From: an uncultured cyanobacterium | GTDB taxonomy: Bacteria; Cyanobacteriota; Cyanobacteriia; PCC-6307; Cyanobiaceae | DNA: 45,907 bases | Direction of reading: 5' to 3' | Assembly (NCBI GenBank): GCA_903882285.1 | Contig: CAIRWM010000062.1 | Span: 1 to 45,907 of the forward strand | In this document: piece by piece, positions 39-10,508 of the stretch | Layout: each line of letters opens with the position of its first letter | Numbering within the stretch: position 1 is the first letter of the stretch | Program-made: the position numbers and the translations under genes | The notes under the pieces: generated by a model | The model's input: only the letters and a program-made list of their open reading frames with translations | Database searches by the model: none | What the model was told of the DNA's origin: nothing

Positions 39-800
39 TCAGGGTGTGGGCCAGTCCACCAGGCCGAGCCGCAGGCCCACAACGGCGGCGTGGGTGCGGT
101 CGCGGGCCGGCAGTTTCATCAGCACGTTGCGGATGTGGGTTTTCACCGTGTCGATCGACACATACAGCTGGCCGGCGATCTCTGCGTTGCTCTCGCCCCT
201 CACCAGCCTTGCCAACACCTCGAGCTCTCTGGTGCTGAGCGACTGAAGCGGCCGCTCGAGGGGGTCACTGCCGCTGTGGCGCATCTGAGGGTCGAGGGCG
301 TGGTCGATGAACACGCCTCCGGCGCAGACGCTGCGGATCGCTGCGATGCCGCCGCCCAGGCCTAGGTGCGCCTCCAGCAGGATGCCGTGGCAGCCGGCGT
401 CGATGGCGCCCTGGATGTGGCTGCGCCGCCGCTCCTGGCTGATCAGCAGCAGGATGCGGGTGCGCGGGTACTGACTCCTGACCGCCAGCACCAGCGCGAT
501 GCCGCAGCCGGCCTCGAGCCGATCGCTCACGATCAAGAGATCGGGCTGGTGCGCCCCAACCAGGGCCAGTCCCTCCAGTTCGGTGGTCGCTGCTCCAAGG
601 ATGTGGTCGCTGCTGCCCACCAGGAGGCTGATCTGGGCCCGGCTCGCCAGGCAGAGCACCAGCGACCGATGGCCCAGCAGGTCCCTGGTGCGGGCATGGT
701 TGGCCCGCACCTGGGCCAGCAACGGGGTGAAGTCCAAAGGGGGGCGCTTCGGAGCCGATCGCAGCTTCCATGCTGATTGCTGCGGTCCGGGCCGGGACAT
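39..800 (-). CDS. LuxR/NarL-type transcriptional regulator with degenerate receiver-like domain
   Basis: Predicted DNA-binding regulator of 253 residues. The C-terminal ~66 residues (about 188-253) are a clear LuxR helix-turn-helix, with the LSTRELEVL...SNAEIA...VSIDTVKTHIRNVLMKL pattern. The region before it has the alternating strand/helix look of a response-regulator receiver (PDLLIVSDRLE, then RILLLIS, then GILLEAH). The switch lysine expected after the fourth strand is replaced: the sequence reads LLEAH. Phosphorylation by a histidine kinase is therefore doubtful. I chose the ATG at 800; the frame stays open to 890, but that would overlap the divergent DUF1825 start at 889. Targets cannot be inferred. 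Confidence 0.82.
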   Translation of the reverse strand: MSRPGPQQSAWKLRSAPKRPPLDFTPLLAQVRANHARTRDLLGHRSLVLCLASRAQISLLVGSSDHILGAATTELEGLALVGAHQPDLLIVSDRLEAGCGIALVLAVRSQYPRTRILLLISQERRRSHIQGAIDAGCHGILLEAHLGLGGGIAAIRSVCAGGVFIDHALDPQMRHSGSDPLERPLQSLSTRELEVLARLVRGESNAEIAGQLYVSIDTVKTHIRNVLMKLPARDRTHAAVVGLRLGLVDWPTP

Positions 801-888
801 GCTCCGGCGAGGATGCGTGGATCCGCACTTTCGGGCTGCCGGCGTCCTGCTCAGAATTGCTGGACCATGCCATCCGTCCAGCGCCGCC

Positions 889-1212
889 ATGGCCTTCTTC
901 GAGTCCGAAATCGTCCAGGACGAAGCGAAGCGTCTGTTCAGCGATTACCAGAATCTGATGCAGCTCGGAGGCGAATACGGCAAGTTCGATCGCGAAGGTA
1001 AGAAGCTCTATATCGAGCGGATGGAAGAAATGATGGGTCGCTATCGGATCTTCATGAAGCGCTTCGAACTCTCCGAGGATTTCCAGGCCAAGCTCACGGT
1101 GGAGCAGCTGCGCACCCAGCTCGGGCAGTTCGGTCTCACGCCGGAAACGATGTTCGAGCAGATGCAGCGCACGCTCGAGCGCATGAAGGACGAGCTGCAG
1201 AAGCAGGTCTGA
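889..1212 (+). CDS. DUF1825 family protein
   Basis: Small soluble protein of 107 residues, highly charged and predicted almost wholly alpha-helical, starting MAFFESEIVQDEAKRLF. It matches the cyanobacterial DUF1825 family in length and in its conserved FFESEIVQ, YGKFDREGK and YIERMEEMMGRYRIFMKRFELS segments. The family has no established function that I know of. The start is fixed by the ATG at 889, which lies 89 bases from the divergent regulator's start. The stop is followed at once by the decayed 3' end of an opposite-strand binding-protein relic, so the downstream border looks like an old deletion junction. Confidence 0.9.
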   Translation: MAFFESEIVQDEAKRLFSDYQNLMQLGGEYGKFDREGKKLYIERMEEMMGRYRIFMKRFELSEDFQAKLTVEQLRTQLGQFGLTPETMFEQMQRTLERMKDELQKQV

Positions 1213-1215
1213 GGT

Positions 1216-2186
1216 GGGACTGGTCTGGGCCTGGCGGCTCGGGTTCGCCCCCGCCCGATGAAGGGCCTCCGTCAGCAGACGGGCGTCGAGGAAGCCCTCC
1301 AGGCTCGTGAAGCCGAGCTGGGGATGGGGCTGATGCAGGCACATCAGGCGCAGACACTGCGCCACCACCGGCACCCGCCGGTCCCAGGGGAAGGGCACCA
1401 CCTGGTTGACACCGATGCCGCTGGCCATGCCTACCTGCAGGGAGTTTTGCAGACCACCGGTCTCCACGAGGGAGACGTTCATCAGCTGGGCCGTGCTGCC
1501 CAGGCGCTCCAGGCTGCGGCTGAAGGCCGCCGAGCTGGGATAGGCGCTGATGAGCACCACGGCGCTCGAGTCCTTGGGATGCAGCTGCCGGGCCGGCGCC
1601 TCGGTGGCGGTGGAGTTGCGCTGCACGCCGGCGACCGCTACCGATTGCAGGCCATGGCGGGCCAGGGCGCTGCGGGTGGCGCGCAGGCCGTCCTCGCCGA
1701 AGGCATCTTCCTGGTGCAACACGGTGATCCTGTGGCGATAAGCGCGCACCAGATCGTCAACGATCCGGTCGATTTCGGCCTGGTAGCTGGCCCTCAGGTT
1801 GAACACCATCGGCCGGAAGGACTCCCGCAGCAGGCGGGCGCCGGTGAGGGGGGCCACCAGCGGAATCAGGGCCTGCTCCACCAGGGGCAGGATCGCCTTC
1901 ACCGTCGGCGTTCCCACGTAGCAGAACAGGGCAAAGTTGCGCTCCTCTCCGATCAGCTGGCGCGTGTTGCGCAGTGTCAGCGCCGGTTCGTAACGGTCAT
2001 CGCACCTTCGCGGTAATCGCGGCCCAGCTGGGCGGAGGGTCCGCTCAACGGCGCCGACTGACCCAGGACGAGTTCGGCGCTCGTCGTTGGCGCCGTGGTC
2101 AGCCGGGTGGGGGTGGCCGCCGGCGCCGCGACTGGCGCTAGGGACGCAAGCCAGGGCAGCAGCAGAACGATGCCGCCCCGCGCCAT
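1216..2186 (-). pseudogene. Decayed periplasmic type-I binding protein (ABC-type amino-acid receptor family)
   Basis: Relic of a Peripla_BP_6-like receptor, the LivJ-type fold. The ATG at 2186 opens a good signal peptide (MARGGIVLLLPWLASLAP) and the typical mature start VLGQSAPLSGPSAQLGRDYREGA. Near 1995-2002 the reading frame changes: this frame runs into a stop at 1977, while homology resumes one frame over with DDRYEPALTLRNTRQLIGEE...YVGTPTVKAILPLVEQ...PLTGARLLRE. About 25-30 residues that normally join these parts are absent, so a deletion caused the shift. The homology ends at about 1230 with LTEALHRAG, short of the usual C-terminus. A functional protein is unlikely. The gene faces the ion-channel-like relic head to head. 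Confidence 0.8.
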
Positions 2187-3192
2187 TGACGTCAGCCCGT
2201 TCACTGGCAACCATCCGTTGCGGAAGCAGAAGCGTTGCAACCTCGTCGCCATCAGCTCGGTGGTGCTGGCGACGATTCTGGCTCTGCTGGCCATCGCCCG
2301 GATCGATGTCACGCAGGTGTTCAGCCGCGACGCCCAGCGTCTCTCCGCTTCCGCGCGGTCGCTGAACATCGATCCGCGCCAGTTTCCCCCCAGCGGCTTT
2401 GTGTGGCTGTGCTGGGATGAACCACTGCAGCGCTATCTGGAGGCCAGCGGCGCCACCATCGATCAGCGCTTTGCCCTGGTCAACACGTTGATCACCGATG
2501 CTCCGCCGCAGTTGCAGCCGGTGGATCAGAAGCCGCAAGAGCTCGCCGATGGCAGCTGCTATTAGCTGTTCACCTTTCGGGGCCGCTACTACCTCGATCG
2601 AGCCAGCTTTCGCTACTACCCCTTCATGAGCGTCAGCCTGCCGCTGTCGCTGGAGGTCGACGACGTCGACGGCGCCCTCGGGTACCAGCAGTTGCGCCTC
2701 GAACCGGACATCCGCAACAGCGGCATGGGCCCCTACGCCAAGATCATCGATTGGCTGAATCAGGGCTGGTCGATTGCCGAGTATCGCCACCACTACGCCA
2801 GTAATTTCGGCCTCGGGGGGGCTGAAAGCGATGACAGCCTGATCCTGTTCGAGATCTCCTTTGGCACCTCGGCCTGGGCCTCCTTCTGGCGGCTGCTGTT
2901 GACCCTTGTGTCCCTGCAGCAGACCTATCGCAACGAACTGCCCGTCCTGCCTTCCCTCACCTTCCTGGATCAGGTGAATGTGGCGTCCTATGTGGTTACC
3001 CTGGTGGCCTTCGTGCTGATGATCAGGATCGGTCGCCGTTACGCGGAGGTTGAGGAGATGGAGGAGGGGCCTGTCCGCGACACCCTGCAGGGGCGGCTCG
3101 AGGGCCTCGACAACAGATGGGCCCTGGTGGTGGTCGCTTTCAGCGCCACCGCCATTGCGATCTGCTGGATGTTGATCCCGGCCGGAGCCTGA
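2170..3192 (+). pseudogene. Broken pentameric ligand-gated ion channel-like membrane protein (in-frame amber plus missing membrane segment)
   Basis: One frame runs from about 2170 (or TTG 2218) to 3192, interrupted only by TAG at 2563-2565. Order of parts: an N-terminal membrane anchor (VAISSVVLATILALLAIARI); an extracellular beta-rich part with a Pro-loop-like FRGRYYLDRASFRYYPF; then SAWASFWRLLL; then TLVSLQQTYRNELPVLPSL and TFLDQVNVASYVVTLVAFVL, which fit M2-M3 of prokaryotic Cys-loop channels; an acidic loop; and a last membrane helix ([19 protein letters not shown]). GLIC has the same order, with LP..PY.TYIDQ after M2. M1 and the first part of M2 seem deleted near 2895-2905, leaving three helices after the ectodomain instead of four. 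The family call rests on motif reading only. Confidence 0.6.
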
Positions 3193-3281: not shown

Positions 3282-4562
3282 ATGGTTGAGCAGTCCAGCC
3301 CCCTAGCGATGAGTGCCGCCCTGCCGGCCTGGCTCAGCCGCGGTCTGGCGGATCTCTTCCCCGCGGCGCTGGCCTTGGAGGCGGCGGCCGATCCGGATCA
3401 GACCCTCGCCGCCCGCCTGGCGGAGGCGGCGGTCGCCGGCCGGCCCATGCGCATCAAGCTCGGCATCGATCCCACCGGCACCGACATTCACCTGGGCCAC
3501 AGCCTCCTGTTCCGCAAGCTGCGCGCCTTCCAGGACGCCGGCCACACGGCGGTGCTGATCATCGGAGACTTCACTGCCCGCATCGGCGATCCCACCGGCA
3601 AGAGCGCCACCCGTGTCCAGCTCAGTGCCGCCGACGTGGAGGCCAACGCCGAGACCTACCTGGTGCAGCTGGGGCTCGGCCAGCCCCCCGAGCGGGCACT
3701 GCTCGACTTCACCACGCCCGGACGCTTGGAAGTGCGTCGCAACAGCGAGTGGCTGGCGGGTATGGACCTGCCTGCGGTGATCGACCTGCTCGGTCTCAGT
3801 ACCGTGGGTCAGATGCTGGCCAAGGAGGACTTCGCCCGTCGCTACGGCGCGGGCACGCCGATCAGCCTGCACGAATTTCTCTATCCCCTGCTGCAGGGGT
3901 ATGACTCGGTGGCGGTGCGCTCGGATGTGGAGCTGGGTGGCACCGATCAGAAGTTCAACGTGGCCATGGGCCGCGACCTGCAGCGCCAACATGGCCAGCG
4001 GCCCCAGTTCGGCCTGCTGCTGCCGATCCTGCCGGGGCTCGACGGCGTGCAAAAAATGAGCAAGAGCCTGGGCAACACCGTGGGCCTGCGCGAGGACCCG
4101 CTATCGATGTACTCCAAGCTTGAGAAGGTGCCCGACGCCCTCGTCGACGACTACCTCACCCTGCTCACCGACCTGGAGCTGGCGGCGCTGCCCGCCAACC
4201 CCCGCGAGCGGCAGAAGGCGATGGCGCTGCAGGTGACGGCCGATCGCCACGGCCTGGAGGCGGCCCGCCGGGCCCAGCGCGACGCGGCGATGCTGGTGGG
4301 CGGAGCCACGGCCATCGCCGAAGACGTGCCCGAGGTCTCCCTGGCGGCGGTGAACTTCCCGGCCAAGGCCTTTTATCTGTTGGCAGCAGTGGGGCTGTGC
4401 GCCAGCAGTTCCGAGGCGCGGCGGGCGATCAAGGGCGGCGGCGTCAAGCTCGACGGCGCGAAGCTCAGCGATCCCAATCAAGAGTTCGCTCAGGCGGCGG
4501 CGCTGGAGGGCCGGGTGCTGCAGCTGGGCAAGAAGACCTTCCGGCGGCTGGTGGCGGGATGA
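3282..4562 (+). CDS. tyrS: Tyrosyl-tRNA synthetase
   Basis: Charges tRNA-Tyr with tyrosine using ATP in the cytosol. This is a class I synthetase of 426 residues: the HIGH-type motif reads HLGH (70-73), the second is KMSKS (258-262), and IKLGIDPTG and the [10 protein letters not shown] tyrosine-pocket segment lie between. A C-terminal S4-like RNA-binding domain follows ([18 protein letters not shown]). ATG 3282 gives a length close to the family's, and a TACGAT -10-like hexamer at 3242-3247 would leave a short leader. ATG 3309 (417 residues) is the alternative. The stop overlaps the pyrF start by ATGA, so the two are translationally coupled. Confidence 0.96.
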
Positions 4563-8102: not shown

Positions 8103-8876
8103 ATGGGCTTTTTTGATCGGCTCAGCCGTCTGCTGCGCGCCAACCTCAACGACCTGGTGAGCAAGGCGGAGGATCCGGCCAAGATTCTCGATCAGTCGGT
8201 GGCCGACATGCAGGCCGACCTGGTCAAGCTGCGCCAGGCCGTCGCTACGGCGATCGCCAGCCAGAAGCGCCTGCAGAACCAGGCCGATCAGGCCAGCTCC
8301 CAGGATCGCTTCTGGATGGGCAAGGCCGAGCTGGCCCTCAAGGAAAGCCGCGAGGATCTGGCCCGCGAGGCCCTCACCCGCCGCAAGACCTACTCCGAGA
8401 CCGCCACGGCCCTAAACGCCCAGATCGCCAGCCAGGCCAGCCAGGTCGAGACCCTCAAGAAGAGTCTTACCGCGCTAGAGGGCAAGATCGCTGAAGCCAA
8501 GACCAAAAAAGACATGCTTAAGGCCCGCCACCAGGCGGCCCAGGCTCAGGAGCAACTGCAGAGCGCCGTCAGTGGCCTCGGCACCAACACCTCGATGGCT
8601 GCCTTTGAGCAGATGGAGGAGAAGGTGCTGGCGATGGAGGCCCGCAGCCAGGCGGCCGCCGAGCTGGCCGGTGCCGATCTGGAGAGCCAGTTCGCCGCCC
8701 TGGAGGGCAGCACGGTCGATGAGGAGCTGGCGGCGCTCAAGACCCGCATGGAGGGGGGCTCCAACCCGATCGCCCTGCCGGCGGACAACGGCCCCGTGCC
8801 CCAGCTGGAGCCCGTGCAGGTGGCGGAGGTCGATGCGGAGCTGGAGCAACTGCGTAAGTCGATCGACAAGCTCTGA
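8103..8876 (+). CDS. vipp1: Vipp1 (IM30), PspA-family membrane-remodelling protein
   Basis: Peripheral membrane protein needed for thylakoid biogenesis and membrane repair in cyanobacteria and plastids. It is 257 residues long, mostly coiled coil, opening with the amphipathic helix MGFFDRLSRLLRANLNDLVSKAEDP. The PspA body ends near residue 220. A linker and a short extra helix (VAEVDAELEQLRKSIDKL) follow, and this C-terminal extension separates Vipp1 from PspA proper. ESCRT-III-like ring or rod assembly is known for the family. The thioredoxin gene follows after 80 bases with its own -10-like site. Confidence 0.93.
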   Translation: MGFFDRLSRLLRANLNDLVSKAEDPAKILDQSVADMQADLVKLRQAVATAIASQKRLQNQADQASSQDRFWMGKAELALKESREDLAREALTRRKTYSETATALNAQIASQASQVETLKKSLTALEGKIAEAKTKKDMLKARHQAAQAQEQLQSAVSGLGTNTSMAAFEQMEEKVLAMEARSQAAAELAGADLESQFAALEGSTVDEELAALKTRMEGGSNPIALPADNGPVPQLEPVQVAEVDAELEQLRKSIDKL

Positions 8877-8928
8877 ACCGCTCCGATCGGTTGATCGGCG
8901 CAACGCCCTCCGCAACACCGCAACTCCA

Positions 8929-8934
8929 TACAAT
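8929..8934 (+). promoter_or_regulatory. Candidate -10 element for the thioredoxin gene
   Basis: TACAAT stands out in GC-rich sequence between vipp1 and the thioredoxin gene. A start site about 7 bases downstream would give a leader of roughly 16 bases to TTG 8957, which supports that start over TTG 8891. No clear -35 is visible. Confidence 0.4.
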
Positions 8935-8956
8935 CGGCCCAGCCGAGAGCAGGATT

Positions 8957-9295
8957 TTGTCGAGCGACGTCAACAGCGCCGTACGTGAACTCACCGACTC
9001 CAACTTCGGCCACGAGGTGCTCGAGTCTCCGGGCGCCGTGCTGGTGGATGTCTGGGCGGCCTGGTGCGGTCCATGCCGCCTGATGGCACCCTTGATGGAC
9101 TGGGCGGCGACGGAGTACACCGGCCGCCTCACCGTCGGCAAGCTGGAGGCCGACGGCAATCCCATCAGCCGTGATGCCCAGCGGGTGCAGGGGCTGCCGG
9201 CCCTGATCCTGTTCCGGGGCGGCATCGAGGTGGCGCGTCATGAAGGCGCAATGGCCAGGTCCCAGCTGCAGGCCTTCCTGGATGCCCATCTCTGA
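8957..9295 (+). CDS. Thioredoxin
   Basis: Thiol-disulfide oxidoreductase of 112 residues. The active site is WCGPC (Cys37, Cys40) after VLVDVWAAW. The cis-proline region reads VQGLPALILFRGG, with Ala where classic thioredoxins have Thr after the proline. The start is TTG 8957 (SSDVNSAVRELTDSNFG), because a TACAAT -10-like element at 8929 would put the transcript start just upstream; an earlier TTG at 8891 would precede that site. The end overlaps the aminotransferase start by 14 bases, so both are probably made from one transcript. Confidence 0.9.
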   Translation: MSSDVNSAVRELTDSNFGHEVLESPGAVLVDVWAAWCGPCRLMAPLMDWAATEYTGRLTVGKLEADGNPISRDAQRVQGLPALILFRGGIEVARHEGAMARSQLQAFLDAHL

Positions 9296-10508
9296 ACGTC
9301 TGTCGCACCTGGGCAGCGGCGTGTTCGCCCGCAACGACCAGCGCAAGGTGGCCTACGTCGGCCGCCGGGCTTCCCGGGTCATCGATGCCGAGCTGACGGG
9401 CCGGGTTGACCTGTTGCCGCCCTTGCTCGACCTCTCCCTGGGCTCCACCGATCTGCAGCCCCCCACCGCGGCGATTGAGGCGATCGCAGCGGCTCTGGGC
9501 CGGCCCGAGAGTGCGGGCTACTGCTTGCATGCCGCCACCCTGCCTTTCCGGGAGGCGGTGGCCGCCTGGGCCGCTCGCCGTTTCGGTGCCGCGGTGGATC
9601 CGCAGACGGAGGTGCTGCTACTCGTCGGTTCTCAGGAGGGCACGGCGCACCTGCCGCTGGCGGTGCTGAATCCCGGCGATGCCGCCCTGCTGCTTGATCC
9701 CTACTATCCCTCCCACATGGGGGGTCTGCGCTTGGCCTCGGCCCGGCCGGTGCTGCTGCCGCTTGAGGCTGAGGCCGGCTGGCGGCCCGATTTCGAGCGC
9801 CTCTCCCCCTCGCAGTGGGAGACGCTCAAGCTGATGGTGCTGGGTTTTCCTCACAATCCCACCGCCACTACGGGAGAACAGGCCTGGCTGGATGCCGCTG
9901 TGGCCAAGGCCTGCCAGCACGGGGTGGTGCTTGCCCATGACAATCCCTACGTGGATCTGGCCCTGGAGGGGGAGGCGCCGGCCCTGTTGCGCCATCCCGA
10001 CTGGCGCCGCTGCGGCATCGAGTTCTTCTCCTTTTCCAAGAGCTGGTGCCTCGGCGGCTACCGGCTGGCCTTCGCGATCGGTGCCGAGTGGCTGATTACC
10101 GCCCTGCGCCAGCTCAAGGGAGTGGTGGATTTCAACCAGTCCCTGGCCCTTCAGGCCGGTGCCATCGCGGCGTTGGAGCAGGCGCCGGAATGGCCGCAGC
10201 GGCTGCGGCACGTGTACCGCGAGCGTCGCGACCGCATGGCAGCCGCCCTGGAGGCGGAGGGATGGCCGCTACGCCGTCCCTCGATGGCGCTCTATCTCTG
10301 GCTGCAGCTGCCGCAGGTGGCTCGGCAGAGGGGCATGGATTCGGAGTCCTTTTGCGCCGCCCTGCTGGAGGGCACGGGGGTCTGCCTCACCCCAGGCCAT
10401 GGCTTCGGCCCGGGGGGGGAGGGCTGGCAGCGGCTGGCGCTGGTCCATCCGGTCGAGGATCTGGAGGCGGGGGCGCGCCGCATCGGCGCCTGGTTGCAGC
10501 GGCTGTGA
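9282..10508 (+). CDS. Class I/II pyridoxal-phosphate aminotransferase
   Basis: PLP enzyme of 408 residues. The Schiff-base lysine is Lys253 in EFFSFSKSWCLGGYRLAF. Other fold-type I marks are VLGFPHNPTATTG (substrate/PLP Asn) and LAHDNPYVDLA (PLP Asp-Tyr). It resembles the LL-diaminopimelate or N-succinyl-diaminopimelate aminotransferase group, but the amino-group donor and acceptor cannot be told from sequence alone. ATG 9282 lies within the 3' end of the thioredoxin gene. The stop overlaps the biotin-ligase GTG (GTGA). Confidence 0.88.
   Translation: MPISERLSHLGSGVFARNDQRKVAYVGRRASRVIDAELTGRVDLLPPLLDLSLGSTDLQPPTAAIEAIAAALGRPESAGYCLHAATLPFREAVAAWAARRFGAAVDPQTEVLLLVGSQEGTAHLPLAVLNPGDAALLLDPYYPSHMGGLRLASARPVLLPLEAEAGWRPDFERLSPSQWETLKLMVLGFPHNPTATTGEQAWLDAAVAKACQHGVVLAHDNPYVDLALEGEAPALLRHPDWRRCGIEFFSFSKSWCLGGYRLAFAIGAEWLITALRQLKGVVDFNQSLALQAGAIAALEQAPEWPQRLRHVYRERRDRMAAALEAEGWPLRRPSMALYLWLQLPQVARQRGMDSESFCAALLEGTGVCLTPGHGFGPGGEGWQRLALVHPVEDLEAGARRIGAWLQRL

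Follow-up and report, generated by a model that had tools for sequence, protein, structure and literature searches.

In prokaryotes, periplasmic binding domains of type I (PBP-I) are fused to pentameric ligand-gated (Pro-loop) channels in the alpha-proteobacteria Magnetospirillum and Bradyrhizobium, and stand-alone PBP-II or Cache genes lie in conserved neighbourhoods of channel genes (Tasneem et al., PMC549065). Channels of Synechococcus have been listed by Jaiteh et al. (PMC4795631), according to whom no member of this channel family has a known biological role in any unicellular organism.

Here we describe a cyanobacterial locus in which a stand-alone PBP-I gene and a channel gene, lying on opposite strands, are both broken. 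It was found in the window, by which we mean the whole 45,907-nucleotide stretch of DNA that was analysed, a contig of an uncultured cyanobacterium. The best explanation of the findings as a whole, to which we assign a probability of about 0.78, is that the window carries a dead pair, that the intact pair is kept and inherited together in related genomes, and that the binding protein acts on the channel.

Locus and syntenic slot

Two decayed genes in divergent order occupy positions 1216-3192 of the window (Table 1). An earlier note, made from the sequence without database searches, had placed a damaged minus-strand binding protein back to back with a damaged plus-strand channel; its coordinates and strands were borne out, both genes being broken, and its reading of the locus was largely right. 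We hold the identity of the two genes and their decay to be practically certain.

The flanking genes are those of a recurrent slot. The DUF1825 gene that marks one side was found in 57/60 genomes searched. On the opposite side, tyrS, named from sequence motifs and synteny, is ~81-84% identical to its relatives. The LuxR-type gene is likewise placed in G007 and G016. G021, G020, G011 and G016 all run from DUF1825 (+) through the binding protein (-) and the channel (+) to tyrS (+), with tyrS following the channel immediately or separated from it by inserted genes; G032 has the same pair, its channel being cut by the contig end. The gene order in the window is that of these intact relatives, and the relic thus occupies the orthologous slot.

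At two loci a short tyrS-like fragment lies right behind the channel (L034:10906-11094 and L040:8415-8597), followed by inserted genes and then by a full tyrS. The L034 insert between fragment and full tyrS carries a gene for a PLP-dependent decarboxylase, and a second channel is also among the inserted genes. The fragments are perhaps insertion scars.

Table 1. Features of the decayed locus and its flanks, in window coordinates
Feature	Position	Strand	Basis or remark
LuxR-type response regulator gene, flank	39..890	-	GerE E 1.4e-17
DUF1825 gene, intact, marker of the slot	889..1212	+	PF08855 E 1e-50
Loss of ~135 bp, binding-protein 3′ end	1211..1225	-	DNA alignment to L033 and protein alignment
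Binding-protein core, C-terminus absent	1225..1994 (open frame 1228-2004)	-	Peripla_BP_6 profile positions 48-303, E 3.2e-24
70-bp frameshifting deletion, binding protein	1994..1995 (between the two)	-	Alignment to L033 (intact G021)
Binding-protein N-terminal piece (putative signal peptide, first strand)	1995..2186 (from about 1980)	-	Frame differs from that of the core
Channel relic	2218..3192	+	Open from 2170 to 3192 save one TAG
153-bp in-frame deletion, channel	2397..2398 (between the two)	+	Near-copies of CCAGCGG at the junction
Premature TAG, channel	2563-2565	+	Gln in all near orthologues (YYQLFT)
96-bp in-frame deletion, channel	2901..2902 (between the two)	+	Close to a CTGCTG repeat
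tyrS (tyrosyl-tRNA synthetase), intact, opposite side of the slot	3282..4562	+	Open frame

Family assignment

The binding protein matches Peripla_BP_6 above the Pfam cut-off, as had been anticipated (86.7 bits for the relic and 182-194 for intact copies, with a cut-off of 31.7). Its structural model, of moderate quality (pLDDT 70), has the two-lobed fold and finds 4kv7 in Foldseek at 8.5e-23 with a TM score of 0.75; 4kv7 and 3lop are the nearest solved relatives. The family is that of the binding proteins of branched-chain amino acid transporters, so that candidate ligands would be amino acids or further small carboxylates; the decarboxylase genes near some pairs are only a hint to the ligand. 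The protein is predicted to be secreted, a putative signal peptide being recognizable by eye.

Searched alone, the channel relic matched no channel family in Pfam, and in a single-sequence search of the PDB it matched ELIC at only E 0.12, so that its identity had to be drawn from intact relatives and a profile. To intact orthologues of 420 aa it aligns with E <1e-160, at 62-64% identity with gaps counted and ~78% over aligned residues; chance resemblance of the frame is thereby ruled out. A profile of 13 sequences, comprising 12 intact homologues (distant paralogues included) and the relic, reached ELIC at 2.1e-18 and GLIC at about 3e-11 (best 4.9e-12), in both cases across the ligand-binding and membrane domains. 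The membrane protein thus belongs with ELIC and GLIC rather than with another family, the outcome that the earlier note had named as fatal to its reading. Its forecast of Pfam hits for the channel fared less well: intact channels scored 21-22 bits against Neur_chan_memb (1.8e-4 to 4.7e-4), under the cut-off of 28.1, and Neur_chan_LBD gave no match in the Pfam scan of these channels. Prokaryotic channels may lie beyond the reach of the two models.

The Pro-loop residues P201-F202 are invariant in the 13 sequences, relic included, and intact orthologues have four C-terminal helices (M1-M4) in a low-confidence AlphaFold model and in the matching sequence. The 50 Foldseek matches listed for the channel are all to members of this family, GLIC and ELIC with DeCLIC at rank 50, at E values down to 6e-11; the model behind them is poor (pLDDT 52, TM ~0.3), too weak to count as evidence by itself. 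Counting from the M2-M3 proline, the aligned M2 helices have an invariant Asp at the inner mouth and Leu at 9′, a pattern that resembles that of cation-selective members.

Pairing in related genomes

In the genus sample, 60 genomes were searched for intact channel orthologues, which turned up at ~77% identity, and a binding-protein orthologue was present in exactly the same 9 genomes as the channel orthologue. The named loci, which cover Cyanobium strains and marine Synechococcus single-cell genomes and include two pairs in L097, have the divergent pair in 13/14, the contig of the other (L096) beginning within the channel. The intact neighbours that the earlier note proposed to look for in Cyanobium and Synechococcus therefore exist, and the two genes are far from never adjoining in relatives. 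One record (L091) is titled Bifidobacterium breve, yet its genes are cyanobacterial, and the bin looks mislabelled.

The family sample, of 400 genomes, yielded 73 places with the binding protein, spread over 57 genomes. The gene was adjacent to a channel and divergent from it at 53 places, adjacent and convergent at 6 and not adjacent at 14; a tandem arrangement was found at none of the 73. The non-adjacent places belong mostly to a stand-alone group of 45-52% identity or are contig-end fragments. Chance adjacency is ruled out, 59/73 places being next to a channel. The tail-to-tail arrangement, with 30-92 bp between the genes, is that of a paralogous pair in G132, G271, G286, G255, G292 and G369 (e.g. 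L158:4836-7285).

Pairs lie in several contexts: between DUF1825 and tyrS, with an ABC1-type kinase and an Orn/Lys/Arg decarboxylase, with a sigma factor, and with a Na/Ca exchanger (L103). The exchanger gene (L103:7581-8726, in marine Synechococcus AG-679-C18) adjoins the binding protein on the same strand. No ABC permease gene was noted next to the pairs, whose neighbours were scanned in part. Spacers between divergent genes are nearly zero, and at L097:5878, L099:10042, L100:2091, L101:9991 and L103:9991 the putative start codons overlap in CATG. As a special device this overlap was discarded: 3 of the 5 pairs fall in one clade, and C precedes ATG in 29% of cases anyway.

Binding-protein and channel trees of 34 pairs have 21/31 splits in common, with a Mantel r of 0.94 against a maximum of 0.66 in 2000 permutations, and in genomes with two pairs the partners stay matched. 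Physically linked genes share their history in any case, so the agreement, which is partly due to linkage and to common species history, backs inheritance as a unit and not contact. Together with adjacency in two orientations, the congruent trees strongly support the view that the two genes form an evolutionary unit. In that sense the single signalling unit of the earlier note stands; a physical complex is a proposal.

There are exceptions. The phylum sample was searched by channel and hence was unselected for the binding protein; 11/14 of its channels of at least 54% identity have the partner, the window copy counted. G105, G211 and G223 have the channel (54-65% identity) but no binding protein next to it; the partner is thus no strict requirement. 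The genes around the G105 channel agree, by eye, with the usual slot, which suggests that G105 lost the binding protein alone. A general rule of pairing for every channel was rejected, since, within the same genomes, channels of most other subfamilies lack a neighbouring binding protein.

Adjacency of the intact genes in dozens of related genomes makes it probable that receptor and channel work as one sensing unit. In the periplasm the binding protein would pick up a small solute; once loaded, it would dock on the outer domain of the channel or pass the ligand to that domain, and the cation pore would then open and shift the membrane potential or ion levels. We infer the cation selectivity, the interaction of the two proteins and the reason for their loss, and regard regulation of a cation-selective channel by the loaded binding protein as an even bet.

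The alternative that survives best, though well short of even odds, is a pair that is co-regulated or co-inherited and plays parallel roles without protein contact, the binding protein sensing or scavenging a solute on behalf of another partner and the channel answering to its own ligand. Divergent genes with almost no spacer are probably under common control, and both the channels of G105, G211 and G223 and the binding proteins of the 45-52% group do stand alone; yet adjacency is also kept at the 6 tail-to-tail places, where a shared promoter is absent, and no ABC permease was noted in the part of the pairs' neighbourhoods that was scanned. It is very unlikely that the binding protein serves an ABC transporter whose genes lie elsewhere, its place beside the channel having no functional meaning. 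The transporter type of its family would suit that role, but the adjacency recurs at 59/73 places, in several contexts and two orientations, and the trees are congruent.

Decay of the pair

The binding-protein core retains 83.6% DNA identity to the intact G021 gene and 81-84% protein identity to orthologues. In the same G021 alignment the N-terminal region (1995-2199) has 71% DNA identity; the piece begins with an ATG at 2184-2186, and its translation contains LVLGQSAPLSGPSAQLGRDYREGA, matching intact orthologues. The loss at the 3′ end took the C-terminus (~43 aa), the stop and part of the spacer toward DUF1825.

The channel probably starts with the TTG at 2218, where orthologues have GTG; the ATG at 2170, from which the earlier note read the frame, is without counterpart in near orthologues. 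The relic keeps the N-terminal helix, part of the ligand-binding domain, the Pro-loop (SFRYYPFMSVSLP), the M2-M3 junction, M3 and M4. Decay of the channel had been correctly recognized, but the internal stop was proposed to replace Glu, which the Gln of the orthologues contradicts, and both in-frame deletions were missed. The first removed 51 codons, covering the linker and the first strands of the ligand-binding domain, and the second 32 codons, covering the greater part of M1, the loop between M1 and M2, and the first half of the M2 helix. Because of the second, a pore could not be expected to form from the window channel, and with several disabling lesions in both genes the locus yields no such channel.

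Ka/Ks is 0.25-0.31 for the window binding protein against 0.13-0.26 among intact copies, and 0.17-0.20 against 0.10-0.16 for the channel. These increases are small, and a modest rise fits a fairly recent loss following long constraint. In the channel relic 10/117 otherwise invariant residues are changed; some intact copies reach 6-8%, so this test does not set the relic cleanly apart, and the call of decay rests on the lesions.

It is hardly credible that the shortened frames still make a useful protein, such as a membrane protein without a channel, read from 2626-3192. Neither channel deletion breaks the frame, and past the stop 188 aa stay open, but M2 lacks its pore half, M1 is mostly gone and the ligand-binding domain is incomplete, the binding protein is frameshifted, and the matching locus in G028 has lost other parts. 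The least probable reading is that assembly introduced the lesions and that the living cell has intact genes, for although this is a draft genome of 147 contigs and ~90% completeness, there are two frameshifts or losses, two large deletions, a stop, raised Ka/Ks and the replaced invariant residues (10/117, with some intact copies at 6-8%), and two deletion junctions coincide with short direct repeats, where real deletions often fall.

The source genome (G000) has a second, different channel that is also broken (contig C101, L049 ~8855-9600; frameshifts, a stop and M2 missing) and a third, on C78 (L048:5443-6609), that appears intact.

Two relatives have damage at the corresponding genes. G028 (L040:7431-8396) holds a distinct relic of both, a 1.3-kb block over their 5′ parts being gone and further pieces of the binding protein missing. 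In G007 a deletion of 37 bp (L038:8893-8894) throws the channel out of frame, and the binding protein is intact. The window shares no lesion with G028 or G007, so the decay looks independent in the three; a common earlier silent inactivation is possible. The earlier claim that the genes decayed together holds for the window and G028, but not for G007, where the channel alone is broken, nor for G105, G211 and G223, where the channel is found without an adjacent partner. Joint decay is common, yet no rule. We further infer that function was lost first and that decay came afterwards.

From the relics it follows that some lineages can do without the module, and from G007 that a genome can lose the channel and keep an intact binding protein. 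For the intact module, the conserved partner gene offers a concrete lead on the role of the channel, through the ligand of the binding protein and the opening of the channel by the loaded protein. Carriers of the pair include marine Synechococcus and culturable Cyanobium, and deletion and complementation may therefore be feasible.

Comparison with known systems

By profile, GLIC (Gloeobacter violaceus) and ELIC (Erwinia/Dickeya chrysanthemi) belong to the same family as the cyanobacterial channels over both domains, and the Pro-loop PF and the M2-M3 junction are conserved. Unlike GLIC and ELIC, the cyanobacterial channel has an N-terminal extension of ~60 residues ahead of the ligand-binding domain, and the helix in it looks uncleaved. 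The cyanobacterial channel gene adjoins a binding-protein gene; the comparison with GLIC and ELIC is one of proteins. On the side of the binding protein, 4kv7 (Rhodopirellula) and 3lop (Ralstonia), at ~31% identity, are annotated as ABC-type binding proteins. We know of no channel link for either.

DeCLIC, likewise a prokaryotic channel, also has an additional sensing part in the periplasm (PMC9897478), but its extra domains are fused jelly-roll lobes, whereas the cyanobacterial partner is a separate PBP-I protein. The PBP-II and Cache neighbourhoods (PMC549065) also place a separate solute-binding gene beside a channel gene; they differ in that the cyanobacterial gene is of the PBP-I type and is divergent from the channel or, in one group of paralogues, convergent. 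Operonic PBP-II and fused PBP-I were thus already known, and for the stand-alone PBP-I pair no description was found in the literature searched, which lay mostly outside subscription journals.

A further likeness is to the PBP-I channels of Magnetospirillum and Bradyrhizobium, where PBP-I is also tied to a channel, fused there and encoded here by a separate gene on the opposite strand. Tentatively, and with somewhat less than even confidence, we suggest that a channel of the nicotinic family is gated by a diffusible type-I binding protein as its ligand sensor, and not just by its own outer domain, and that the pair is a picocyanobacterial two-part relative of these fused channels, family-wide and repeatedly lost.
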